In this document: piece after piece, positions 40,319 to 45,070 of the stretch
Layout: each line of letters starts with the position of its first letter
Position numbering within the stretch: position 1 is the first letter of the stretch
NCBI GenBank assembly: GCA_903829945.1
Contig: CAIKRV010000043.1
Span: forward strand, 1-46,324
Origin: an uncultured bacterium
Lineage (GTDB): Bacteria > Bacteroidota > Bacteroidia > CAILMK01
DNA length: 46,324 bases
Reading direction: 5' to 3'
Position numbers and translations under genes: made by a program
The notes under the pieces: model-generated
The model's database searches: none
What the model was told of the DNA's origin: nothing
What the model saw: the letters and a program-made list of their open reading frames with translations, nothing else

Positions 40319-40361
40319 AAATGACAAATATTTTGTACTTTTGACAAAACATTTGTCATTT
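40319..40361. promoter_or_regulatory. Dual operator and promoter of the S24 repressor gene
   Basis: Two similar palindromes of form GACAAAnnnTTTGTC: site 1 at 40323-40337 (one mismatch in the right arm) and site 2 at 40343-40357 (perfect). Their centres are 20 bp apart, two helical turns. An outer 11-bp inverted repeat (AAATGACAAAT, 40319-40329, and its complement 40351-40361) spans both. The -7 box TACTTTTG (40336-40343) lies between the sites, so a bound dimer would block transcription of the repressor gene, which starts 7 bases later at 40368. Confidence 0.7.
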
Positions 40362-40367
40362 TAAGAT

Positions 40368-41081
40368 ATGAGTAACATCAAAGACAACTTAAAATACCTT
40401 CGTTCGCAGCGGGGGATAAATCAAAGTGAACTTGCTGAGGCTCTTGGCATTAAACGAACAGCTTTAAATGCTTGGGAAATTGGGAGGGCGAGTCCGCGCT
40501 ACGAAACTGCCAAAACCATTGCTAATTTCTTTGGCATTAGTCCTGAGGCGTTGCTTTATGGTAATGTAAAGGACCAACTCTTAGAAAATCCACCAATGGG
40601 TGGCGGAATGAAAGTTTTAGCCATCACGGTAGATAATGAAGAAAGGGAAAACATTGAATTTGTTCCTGTAAAAGCATTTGCCGGTTATGCATCGGGCTAT
40701 GGAGATCCGGAGTTTATCAAAGAATTACCAAAATTTCGATTACCGTTTTTAAGTACCGGAACGTATCGTGCCTTTGAAATAGACGGGGATTCCATGCTTC
40801 CGATTGCTTCCGGAAGTATTGTTATCGGGCAATATACCGAACAACTAAGTAGTGTTAAGTTAGGTGATACTTATATTTTCATTACCGAAAATAGCGGCAT
40901 ATTATTTAAACGTGTAGCCAAATTAGAAAAAGACAAGATTTATTTAAAATCTGACAATCCATTATATTATTCCTATAGTTTGCCTTTAAGTGAAATAAGA
41001 GAGGTTTGGAAAACGAAACTTTATATGAGTTATCAATTACCGGATCCGGGAAGTACAGGAATAAATATGGATGTAGCTTAA
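40368..41081 (+). CDS. HTH-XRE repressor with S24 (LexA/CI-type) peptidase domain
   Basis: 237 aa. The N-terminal HTH (residues about 5-55) has the XRE pattern 'NQSELAEALGIKRTALNAWE'. The C-terminal S24 domain has nucleophile Ser142 in 'FEIDGDSMLP' and general-base Lys181 in 'GILFKRVAK', spaced like LexA (39 residues here, 37 in E. coli). An Ala105-Gly106 bond in 'KAFAGYA' sits 37 residues before the Ser and may be the self-cleavage site. The family members are DNA-damage or phage repressors that cleave themselves when stimulated. Nothing phage-like lies around it. The tandem operators in front of it suggest autoregulation. The other targets are unknown. Confidence 0.88.
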   Translation: MSNIKDNLKYLRSQRGINQSELAEALGIKRTALNAWEIGRASPRYETAKTIANFFGISPEALLYGNVKDQLLENPPMGGGMKVLAITVDNEERENIEFVPVKAFAGYASGYGDPEFIKELPKFRLPFLSTGTYRAFEIDGDSMLPIASGSIVIGQYTEQLSSVKLGDTYIFITENSGILFKRVAKLEKDKIYLKSDNPLYYSYSLPLSEIREVWKTKLYMSYQLPDPGSTGINMDVA

Positions 41082-41184: not shown

Positions 41185-41214
41185 GTCATTGCGGGTGTAG
41201 AAGCCCGCAATGAC
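41185..41214. repeat. REP-like palindrome
   Basis: GTCATTGCGGG (41185-41195) and CCCGCAATGAC (41204-41214) around an 8-base loop. The CGTCATTGCG core is found in dispersed intergenic palindromes of many bacteria. It lies 103 bases past the repressor stop, and neither strand has a T run after it, so it is not a typical terminator. Only one copy is in the window. Confidence 0.65.
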
Positions 41215-41579
41215 AAAACACGTTTCATTAACGATTACCTTTTTCAGTTTTATTTTTCTCAATTTTATTTTTGACCGGCCCTTTTGAAGACTTTTTGTAA
41301 TTAACTGAATATAAGGCTTTTTAATTTTAATATCTTAATATACAATTACATAAATCAATATCCCTAATATCAGTGATTTGGTTTTTACGAATTCCGGTAG
41401 AATTAAGCGTTTTGACATAAATCAATGACTTGCAATTGTTTAAGTTTTTTAGCCTAACTTACCTGTGTACATCTATCCGCTTTTTTTACTAAGGTATTAA
41501 AGTAAGGTACTCCCCGCAACTCAGTTTATTTAACTGAACAATATAGTCAGGTATAAGCACTTAAATAAAGCAATTTTTG

Positions 41580-41600
41580 TTATCCACACGTTGTGGACAA
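41580..41600. promoter_or_regulatory. Head-to-head DnaA boxes upstream of nrdJ
   Basis: TTATCCACA (41580-41588), identical to the strong DnaA box, and TGTGGACAA (41592-41600; one mismatch on the opposite strand) face each other across a 3-bp spacer. They lie 40 bp upstream of the nrdJ -7 box, near the site where an activator or repressor would act. In E. coli DnaA binds upstream of nrdAB; here binding is inferred. Confidence 0.5.
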
Positions 41601-41639: not shown

Positions 41640-41647
41640 TAATTTTG
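41640..41647 (+). promoter_or_regulatory. -7 promoter box of nrdJ
   Basis: TAATTTTG matches TAnnTTTG, 75 bases before the ATG at 41723. The in-frame TTG at 41645 overlaps it and is not a usable start. Confidence 0.55.
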
Positions 41648-41722
41648 ACGTCCTCGCTTTCGCCAAACAAAGCAAACTACAACGCACCAAAGTTTGCAAA
41701 CAGAGTAAAAAAATATAATAGC

Positions 41723-44700
41723 ATGACGCAGAAGAAACAAACCAAAAACGCCAACGAAGGCATGAAATTCGAAAGGCTCTTCACCATTGAAGGTACCAGC
41801 CCTTATGACCAATTCATTTATGAAAAGAGAAGCTCTGCAATACGCAATCCTTCAGGAGATGTAGTGTTTGAAATGAATGACGTTGAAGTTCCAAGAGAAT
41901 GGAGTCAGGTAGCCACAGATATCTTAGCCCAAAAATATTTCCGCAAAACGGGTGTTCCAAAAGCGGATGGCACCTTAGGTGGAGAAAACTCCATTAAACA
42001 AGTAGCCCATCGTATGGCTGATTGTTGGAGACAATGGGGTGAACAATATGGATACTTTGCAAGTCCAAAGGATGCACAAATATTTTATGATGAATTAGCA
42101 TTCATGATTACGGGTCAGTATGCTGCTCCTAATAGTCCGCAATGGTTCAATTCCGGTTTATATAGCTCTTATGGGATAACCGGTGATCCGCAAGGACATT
42201 ATTTTGTAAACCCGGAAACCAATGAATTGGAAAAATCCACCTCTGCTTATGAAAGACCTCAACCTCATGCATGTTTTATTCTCTCTGTTGATGATGATTT
42301 AGTTAATGAAGGCGGCATTATGGACCTTTGGGTTCGTGAAGCGCGTATTTTTAAATATGGCTCAGGTGTTGGAACAAATTTCTCCAAAATTCGCGGAGCC
42401 AATGAAAAATTAAGCGGTGGCGGTTATTCTTCCGGTTTGATGTCCTTTTTGAAAATTGGAGATCGTGCCGGTGGTGCAATCAAATCCGGTGGTACTACGC
42501 GTCGCGCTGCTAAAATGGTGGTGTTAGATATGGACCATCCTGAAATCGAAGATTTTATTAATTGGAAAGTAGAAGAAGAAAAGAAAGTTGCTGCCCTGAT
42601 TGCTGCAGGATATGATTCCGATTATGAAGGAGAAGCCTATCGCACCGTAAGCGGTCAAAACTCTAATAATAGTGTTCGTATACCAAATTCATTTATGAAA
42701 GCGGTAGAAGAAGATTCCGATTGGAATTTAATTGCACGCTCTACCGGTAAAGCCATCAAAACACTTTCTGCTCGTAAACTATGGGATGAAATAGCTTTTG
42801 CTGCATGGGCTTGCGCTGATCCGGGCGTACAATTTGATACTACCATTAATGAATGGCATACCTGCCCTGAAGGTGGACGTATTAATGCGTCTAATCCTTG
42901 TTCCGAGTATATGTTCTTGGATAATACAGCATGTAATCTTGCTTCCATGAACCTACGTAAATTCTTTGATGAAAAAACAAGCATTTTTGATGTTAAAGCA
43001 TTTGAACATGCTTCACGTTTATGGACCGTAGTGCTCGAAATATCCGTGCTTATGGCACAATTCCCTTCTAAGGAAGTAGCACGTTTAAGTTATGATTATC
43101 GTACGCTTGGATTGGGTTATGCTAATCTTGGTTCCTTATTAATGGTAAGCGGTATTCCTTATGATAGTGATGATGCATTAGCCATTGCAGGAGCCATTAC
43201 CGCTATTATGACAGGCACCTCCTATGCTACCTCTGCTGAAATGGCCAAATGTTTTGGTGCATTTAATGAGTATGAAAAAAACAAAGAGCATATGCTGCGT
43301 GTAATTCGTAACCATAGATATGCTGCCTATAATGCGACTGATGCCTATGAAGGCTTGGAAATAAAACCTCACGGTATTAACTCTCGTTATTGCCCGGATT
43401 ATCTTTTATCCGCAGCTTGTGATGCCTGGGATAAAGCATTACAAATGGGTGAAAAATATGGATACCGCAACGCACAAGCTACCGTTTTGGCGCCAACAGG
43501 TACTATCGGTTTAGTAATGGATTGTGATACTACCGGTGTAGAACCTGATTTTGCTTTGGTAAAATTCAAAAAACTTTCCGGTGGCGGTTATTTCAAAATA
43601 ATTAATCAAAGTGTGCCTGCTGCTTTGCGTAAGTTGGGATATTCCGAAAGCGAATTAGAAGCGATTGTTGATTATGCTAAAGGCAAGGGCACCTTGAATG
43701 GTGCACCGTCCATCAACTTTGATACCTTAAGAAATAAAGGTTTCAAACAAGATGATATTGAAAAAGTAGATAGAGCTGTTCATTCCGCATTTGATATTGA
43801 GTTTGCATTTAATGCGTATACTTTAGGTGAAGAATGTTTGCAACGCTTAGGCTTTAAAGCAGAGCAATACCGCGATCATTCTTTCAACTTATTAAAAGCA
43901 CTAGGCTTTACTAAAGATCAAATTGCACAAGCCAATCAATACGTTTGCGGAACCATGACCATAGAAGGAGCTCCGCTCTTAAAAGATGAGCACCTTCCTG
44001 TATTTGATTGCGCCAATCGTTGTGGCACCATCGGTACACGCTATATTCATGCATTCGGACATATACGTATGATGGCCGCAGCACAACCATTTATCTCCGG
44101 TGCTATTTCCAAAACCATTAATTTACCTAATGAAGCTACGGAAGCAGAAATTAAAGGTTGCTATGAATTGAGTTGGAAATATGCTTTAAAAGCAAATGCA
44201 CTTTATCGTGATGGTTGCAAACTTTCACAACCTTTGGCTAATAAAGTTAATAAGAAAGAAGACAAGGATGATATTATCAATGTAGTTGAAGATGCCATCG
44301 GTGAGAAAGCAAAAGTGAGTATCGAGGATTTAACACCTGAACAAGTATTGGAAGCAGCAAAATCCATTATTGCAAAAAGTAGTGATACTACCTTCAAGCG
44401 TCAATTATCCAGAGTGGTAGAACGCAAAAAATTACCACATCGCAGAAACGGCTTTACACAAAAAGCAACCGTTGGCGGTCAAACGATATTTGTTCGTACC
44501 GGTGAATACAGCGATGGTACTTTAGGAGAGATATTTATTGATATTCATAAAGAAGGTGCGGCATTCCGCTCCATTATGAACTGCTTTGCCATTGCAGTAT
44601 CCGTTGGATTGCAATATGGCGTTCCTTTAGAAGAATATGTAGATAAATTTACCTTTACTCGTTTCGAACCTAGCGGTATGGTAGATCATCCTAATATTAA

Positions 44701-45070
44701 GTCTGCAACTTCTATGCTTGACTATATATTCAGATTATTAGGATTTGAATACTTGAAGCGTAATGATTTGGTACAAGTACAACCTAAATCAGAAAACACA
44801 ACCGATCCTTCTGTATTGGAAGCTGCTGCTGAAGTACGCTCTTCCTCCAGTCCTTTAGAAACTAAAGAACTAATGTTTACAGAAATAAAAACCGGCACTA
44901 CACTAAATGCCGATGGTACAAAACATGCAGAAACAGAAGATGCTGCACAACATTTCCTCAGCGGATTGATGGGTGATGCTCCTGCCTGTGATATTTGTGG
45001 CCACATTACTATTCGTAACGGTACTTGCTACAAATGTTTAAATTGTGGCAATAGCTTAGGCTGTAGTTAA
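41723..45070 (+). CDS. nrdJ: Adenosylcobalamin-dependent (class II) ribonucleotide reductase
   Basis: 1115 aa from the ATG at 41723. It reduces ribonucleotides to deoxyribonucleotides using a thiyl radical made from adenosylcobalamin. The thiyl Cys393 and Glu395 are in 'NPCSE', and the redox-active pair is Cys184 ('HACFILSV') with Cys404 ('NTACNLAS'), 11 residues after Cys393. The phosphate-binding 'APTGTIGLVMD' is present. A TSCPD domain lies at about 915-1035, and a Cys-rich tail (about 1089-1115: CDICGH, CYKCLNCG) probably shuttles electrons. The start was moved because the upstream in-frame TTG overlaps the promoter box. A terminator follows at 45125. No other reductase gene is in the window. 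B12 supply is needed. Confidence 0.96.
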   Translation: MTQKKQTKNANEGMKFERLFTIEGTSPYDQFIYEKRSSAIRNPSGDVVFEMNDVEVPREWSQVATDILAQKYFRKTGVPKADGTLGGENSIKQVAHRMADCWRQWGEQYGYFASPKDAQIFYDELAFMITGQYAAPNSPQWFNSGLYSSYGITGDPQGHYFVNPETNELEKSTSAYERPQPHACFILSVDDDLVNEGGIMDLWVREARIFKYGSGVGTNFSKIRGANEKLSGGGYSSGLMSFLKIGDRAGGAIKSGGTTRRAAKMVVLDMDHPEIEDFINWKVEEEKKVAALIAAGYDSDYEGEAYRTVSGQNSNNSVRIPNSFMKAVEEDSDWNLIARSTGKAIKTLSARKLWDEIAFAAWACADPGVQFDTTINEWHTCPEGGRINASNPCSEYMFLDNTACNLASMNLRKFFDEKTSIFDVKAFEHASRLWTVVLEISVLMAQFPSKEVARLSYDYRTLGLGYANLGSLLMVSGIPYDSDDALAIAGAITAIMTGTSYATSAEMAKCFGAFNEYEKNKEHMLRVIRNHRYAAYNATDAYEGLEIKPHGINSRYCPDYLLSAACDAWDKALQMGEKYGYRNAQATVLAPTGTIGLVMDCDTTGVEPDFALVKFKKLSGGGYFKIINQSVPAALRKLGYSESELEAIVDYAKGKGTLNGAPSINFDTLRNKGFKQDDIEKVDRAVHSAFDIEFAFNAYTLGEECLQRLGFKAEQYRDHSFNLLKALGFTKDQIAQANQYVCGTMTIEGAPLLKDEHLPVFDCANRCGTIGTRYIHAFGHIRMMAAAQPFISGAISKTINLPNEATEAEIKGCYELSWKYALKANALYRDGCKLSQPLANKVNKKEDKDDIINVVEDAIGEKAKVSIEDLTPEQVLEAAKSIIAKSSDTTFKRQLSRVVERKKLPHRRNGFTQKATVGGQTIFVRTGEYSDGTLGEIFIDIHKEGAAFRSIMNCFAIAVSVGLQYGVPLEEYVDKFTFTRFEPSGMVDHPNIKSATSMLDYIFRLLGFEYLKRNDLVQVQPKSENTTDPSVLEAAAEVRSSSSPLETKELMFTEIKTGTTLNADGTKHAETEDAAQHFLSGLMGDAPACDICGHITIRNGTCYKCLNCGNSLGCS

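Follow-up and report, generated by a model that had tools for sequence, protein, structure and literature searches.

The locus at positions 40,319 to 41,081 of the window (the whole stretch of DNA that was analysed, 46,324 nucleotides) raises the question of what an S24-type repressor with phased operators around its own promoter does in a member of the Bacteroidota, and in particular whether it is the DNA-damage switch of its host and which genes besides its own it would govern. The features of the locus are as follows.

40323-40337, strand not given: operator 1, GACAAATATTTTGTA, with one mismatch to GACAAANNNTTTGTC and in the same phase as at dnaE2, at dinB and in relatives.
40336-40343, + strand: -7 promoter box, TACTTTTG, which fits the Bacteroidota TAnnTTTG and lies at the junction of operators 1 and 2.
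40343-40357, strand not given: operator 2, GACAAAACATTTGTC, a perfect palindrome.
40368-41081, + strand: 237-aa repressor, with an XRE/CI-type HTH (residues ~4-65), a linker and an S24 self-cleavage domain (~96-220).

The operators are 15-bp palindromic sites with a start-to-start distance of exactly 20 bp, and TACTTTTG overlaps the end of operator 1 and the first base of operator 2. The original prediction described two palindromes 20 bp apart with a -7 box between them; the spacing and the position of the box at the junction both hold, whereas the first copy is not perfect as was implied. Its mismatch changes TGTC to TGTA and thereby supplies the TA of the -7 box, which coincides with the final two bases of operator 1. 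TACTTTTG is called a promoter box on the basis of TAnnTTTG, which we take to be the Bacteroidota -7 consensus; no clear -33 element is seen upstream of it. When the 243-bp intergenic region was dinucleotide-shuffled 20,000 times, two sites (with one mismatch or fewer) at 20 bp never arose, and in a fairer test in which any palindrome with a second copy is accepted, 99 of 5,000 shuffles succeed (~2%). Judged within the window alone, the operator pair is only modestly unusual.

The protein matches HTH_3 (PF01381, E 7.7e-15) and Peptidase_S24 (PF00717, E 6e-8), and its cleavage residues, the Ala105-Gly106 bond, Ser142 and Lys181, are all present. Among 52 aligned homologues the Ser and Lys are invariant, with the Ala found in 45 and the Gly in 48, and the XRE domain, Ser/Lys pair and Ala-Gly bond originally proposed are thus borne out. 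An AlphaFold model (pLDDT 78) is disordered from residue 223; its predicted N-terminal domain resembles the P22 c2 repressor fold (TM 0.87-0.89 on the target) and its predicted C-terminal domain resembles LexA and lambda CI. The repressor ends shortly after the Trp213 motif, without the C-terminal helix of its family, as does its homologue in a genome of the same genus (G001); the extension is kept in a genome of the same family (G002) and in nearly all other family members. LexA_DNA_bind (PF01726) is absent from the repressor and from its entire genome (G000, 2.9 Mb) in a search that succeeds at its cut-off in nine control genomes. A second S24 protein, the only other one in the genome, reads AAAS in the equivalent stretch and, having no Ala-Gly bond, was rejected as a LexA. 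The expectation that Bacteroidota often lack canonical LexA is therefore upheld here, in agreement with Sanchez-Osuna et al. 2021 (PMC8565304).

Genome-wide, the phased double operator is found at three places only: before the repressor gene itself, before dnaE2 and before dinB. Single sites with one mismatch or fewer occur at 12 places vs 9 for a reversed control pattern, which is background level, and single-site counts were rejected as evidence; the seven single one-mismatch sites that remain fall within unrelated genes or at their edges. The signal above chance comes from two sites being paired in phase and from where such pairs stand, namely at SOS genes. With two mismatches or fewer, 0.013 pairs spaced by exactly 20 bp are expected and two clear ones are seen, in the window and at C8:9860/9880, and the rough chance of a site with at most one mismatch within 120 bp at both polymerase genes is ~2e-7.

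The C8 pair lies directly before dnaE2, with the inner operator abutting the ATG. The 1033-aa product is DnaE-type, with Pol III alpha domains confirmed by Pfam, and is a second DnaE, the main one being encoded separately on contig C11. At dinB the operator lies just upstream (C40:29090) and its partner 20 bp on is half-degenerate, with the left half lost; PF00817 is present once in the genome, and dinB is therefore its only Y-family polymerase gene. TAnnTTTG is at the same position in all three promoters and reads TACATTTG at dnaE2 and dinB. The concern that the motif might occur nowhere else is answered by these two operators. A sequence profile built from all seven promoters (R1), and thus including the dnaE2 and dinB sites, gives three strong matches in the genome and nothing else at E <0.1 except for the window site read in reverse. 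Because R1 contains the target sites, a hold-out profile (R2) was trained only on the repressor promoters of G000, G001 and G002. With R2, for which as for R1 the E-values are rough, dnaE2 is recovered at E 2.4e-7 and dinB at 0.0016, and the next match in the same genome is at 0.049; weak profile matches at C46, C37 (near frr) and C84 were treated as noise.

The arrangement is shared with relatives. The repressors of G001 and G002 are 81% and 56% identical, respectively, and each genome has the 20-bp pair at both the repressor gene and dnaE2 (R2 E 2.9e-7 at dnaE2 of G001). R2 also finds a new target, recA of G002 (E 0.002), where the operator pair is 70-110 bp upstream of the ATG and again in 20-bp phase. 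The repressor's own genome has no matching operator at recA, where the best match has 3 mismatches, and recA was rejected as a target there; a regulon without recA is unlike most SOS regulons and counts against the SOS reading. The proposed search at recA, dnaE and umuC-like genes thus yielded dnaE2, dinB and the recA of a related genus but not the genome's own recA. In a further genome of the same family (G003, 95% complete), neither a homologue of the repressor (E <= 0.001) nor a significant operator was found, which likewise speaks against the SOS reading.

Two other palindromic elements are noted. An operator-like pair in G002 (L106, C15:21760-21797; E 6.7e-5 with R1 and 0.014 with R2) lies ~85 bp upstream of a 233-aa gene that has no Pfam match and is possibly a further SOS gene. 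Some 160 bp upstream of recA in the repressor's own genome (L096, C78) is a perfect palindrome, CGCGACA-TTTTT-TGTCGCG, which could be the terminator of the upstream gene or the operator of another regulator; its GACA-N5-TGTC spacing differs from that of TGAC-N9-GTCA.

We consider it very probable that the gene, which encodes a protein of the non-canonical LexA family, supplies the cell with its SOS repressor, and that this repressor would control dnaE2, dinB and itself. This reading is drawn from the arrangement of the protein's domains, its intact cleavage residues, the phased operators that three promoters share, their conservation in relatives and the lack of another LexA candidate, and the original suggestion of a local DNA-damage switch gains support from the sequence, from the operators at dnaE2 and dinB, and from recA in the related genus. 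In an undamaged cell, one repressor dimer would occupy each palindrome, and the two operators, about two helical turns apart, would clamp the -7 box between them; because of this clamp, operator-bound dimers would keep RNA polymerase off the repressor, dnaE2 and dinB promoters. Upon DNA damage, RecA filaments would trigger cleavage of the Ala105-Gly106 bond by Ser142/Lys181, the cleaved repressor would fall off and both error-prone polymerases would be made, with fresh repressor made alongside them later resetting the switch. Binding, dimer cooperativity, RecA-stimulated cleavage and damage induction are the steps that we infer from sequence.

The alternative that survives best, although we regard it as unlikely, is that this repressor of error-prone polymerases answers another signal, such as a partner protein or a protease, and not RecA and DNA damage through self-cleavage. 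Protease-controlled XRE repressors exist, Deinococcus DdrO being one, and DdrO N-terminal domains are among the structural matches to the repressor model; moreover, cleavage is predicted from sequence and the genome's own recA is outside the regulon. However, the Ala-Gly bond, Ser and Lys are intact and conserved in the family, members of which are mitomycin-inducible by RT-qPCR (PMC8565304). Still less likely is that a leftover or active prophage or mobile element contributed a CI repressor that serves its own element, the dnaE2 and dinB matches being incidental. The HTH is CI-type, the best PHROG match is a transcriptional repressor, and a Mu-like Elizabethkingia phage has a 34% identical homologue beside MuA/MuB, but the neighbours here are housekeeping genes (PcrB/GGGPS upstream, a class II ribonucleotide reductase downstream), with no phage structural, integration or replication genes among them, as the original prediction had noted. 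The phased operator at both error-prone polymerase genes, conserved across genera and with the ~2e-7 chance given above, already largely refutes this explanation. Scarcely credible is that the main target is the ribonucleotide reductase gene nrdJ (41645-45070), raising dNTPs with the polymerases secondary: nrdJ is adjacent and on the same strand, and dNTP supply is SOS-linked in some bacteria, but it was rejected as a target since the 560-bp gap holds no operator (best match 3 mismatches, at 41212).

Two observations were made alongside. The homologue in the Elizabethkingia phage TCUEAP3 (OK632026.1; L163 2947-3768), next to the MuA/MuB transposases, has both the Ala-Gly bond and the C-terminal helix of the family. 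It is relevant to the phage origin proposed for these repressors, its placement in a quick tree with phage repressors being uncertain. Upstream of nrdJ, TGTTATCCACACGTTGTGGACAA (41578-41600) contains two inverted DnaA-box-like 9-mers, TTATCCACA and TTGTCCACA, and may mark an nrd promoter under DnaA control or belong to a replication origin.

Returning to the SOS repressor reading, regulators of this kind are already known, non-canonical LexA repressors having been shown in 2021 to run the SOS response in Bacteroidetes (PMC8565304). Like them, the window's repressor joins a CI-type XRE HTH to an S24 domain with Ala-Gly, Ser and Lys, has operators at its own promoter, dinB and dnaE2 (and recA in a relative), belongs to a phylum without canonical LexA and has homologues divergent from dinB. 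The earlier suggestion of a domesticated phage-type repressor also fits what has been published on the family, as well as the P22 c2-like N-terminal fold. The family has two boxes, CTAA-N5-TTAG and GGA-N5-TCC, with diverged boxes also allowed, and family relatives bind their box by EMSA. Neither box has a site in the repressor's own 130-bp upstream region, where TGAC-N9-GTCA is found instead; because diverged boxes are documented (PMC8565304), this difference marks a variant and not exclusion from the family. Unlike the published repressors, this one has the TGAC-N9-GTCA operator in a fixed 20-bp pair around the -7 box, a minimal regulon and, in its genus, no C-terminal helix. An extra C-terminal alpha-helix appears in the published models and was speculated to fix operator spacing; it is not a family criterion there. 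The one diverged box that was proved, TTAC-AAATT-GTAA of the E. anophelis SOS regulator (Fig. 8 of PMC8565304), is likewise a palindrome at the promoter of a member of the same family, with an error-prone polymerase gene opposite, but its half-site differs and phased pairs of it are absent from the main text of that paper.

Francisella FddR (PMC13148647) is similarly a co-opted phage S24 repressor, autoregulated via a palindrome and acting in a DNA-damage response that canonical LexA does not control, but it is from another lineage, uses the box GTG-N11-CAC and has divergent gene targets and not scattered dnaE2 and dinB. Canonical E. coli LexA shares the S24 C-terminal fold, the presumed RecA-stimulated self-cleavage and the SOS polymerase targets, and differs in its winged-HTH LexA_DNA_bind domain and its operator. 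The CI-type repressors of lambda, P22 and 434 have the same N-terminal fold and likewise use paired operators that overlap a promoter, whereas the window's repressor has no phage genes nearby and host polymerases as targets.

In a maximum-likelihood tree of 65 homologues, G000, G001 and G002 form their own well-supported branch (100/96) of a Bacteroidia-wide family that also contains CTAA-box members, recognised by their promoter box and not by the published reference proteins (WP_075324850.1 and WP_025606010.1). Homologues with CTAA-N5-TTAG promoters are 36-46% identical to the repressor. This box is present in 4/17 and 3/8 promoters of two other clades (0.08 and 0.07 expected), which serves as a positive control for the promoter-box method. 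In a 19-member clade, TGAC-N9-GTCA is present in 4 promoters vs 0.02 expected (0/100 shuffles), and TGAY-N9-GTCA pairs 23 bp apart precede dinB in G029 and G056, the latter on a contig separate from the repressor and with one half-site reading CGAC. Near 17 family members in other genomes there is a dinB gene, mostly divergently transcribed.

We think it likely that the Bacteroidota have a third SOS box that had gone unreported, TGAC-N9-GTCA (or TGAY-N9-RTCA in a looser form), and that at least two repressor clades use it in phased pairs, spaced by 20 bp here and by 23-24 or 29 bp in the other clade. In the window's family these pairs would be interleaved with the unusual TAnnTTTG -7 box, and in the window's genus they would keep their fixed spacing without the C-terminal helix proposed to impose it. 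Relative to the published account (PMC8565304), the new elements are a box distinct from both described boxes and enriched in a second clade too, operators paired at a fixed 20 bp and interleaved with the -7 box, a putative three-gene regulon of repressor, dnaE2 and dinB without recA, and the loss of the helix in one genus. Because the half-site and pair spacings are unchanged in that genus, the helix appears dispensable for operator spacing, which these data argue without proving; the missing helix is a natural test of the published idea of how these repressors measure operator spacing. In a phylum long thought to be without an SOS response, the SOS map is extended to a lineage with another box, a minimal and directly testable regulon (repressor, dnaE2, dinB) is named, and the overlap of operators and -7 box offers a concrete repression mechanism.

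Lastly, we note that where family members are transcribed divergently from dinB in G032 (L055) and G031 (L060), perfect TGATACAAATTGTATCA-type palindromes abut their start codons, which adds one more variant of the box, similar to the one published for E. anophelis.
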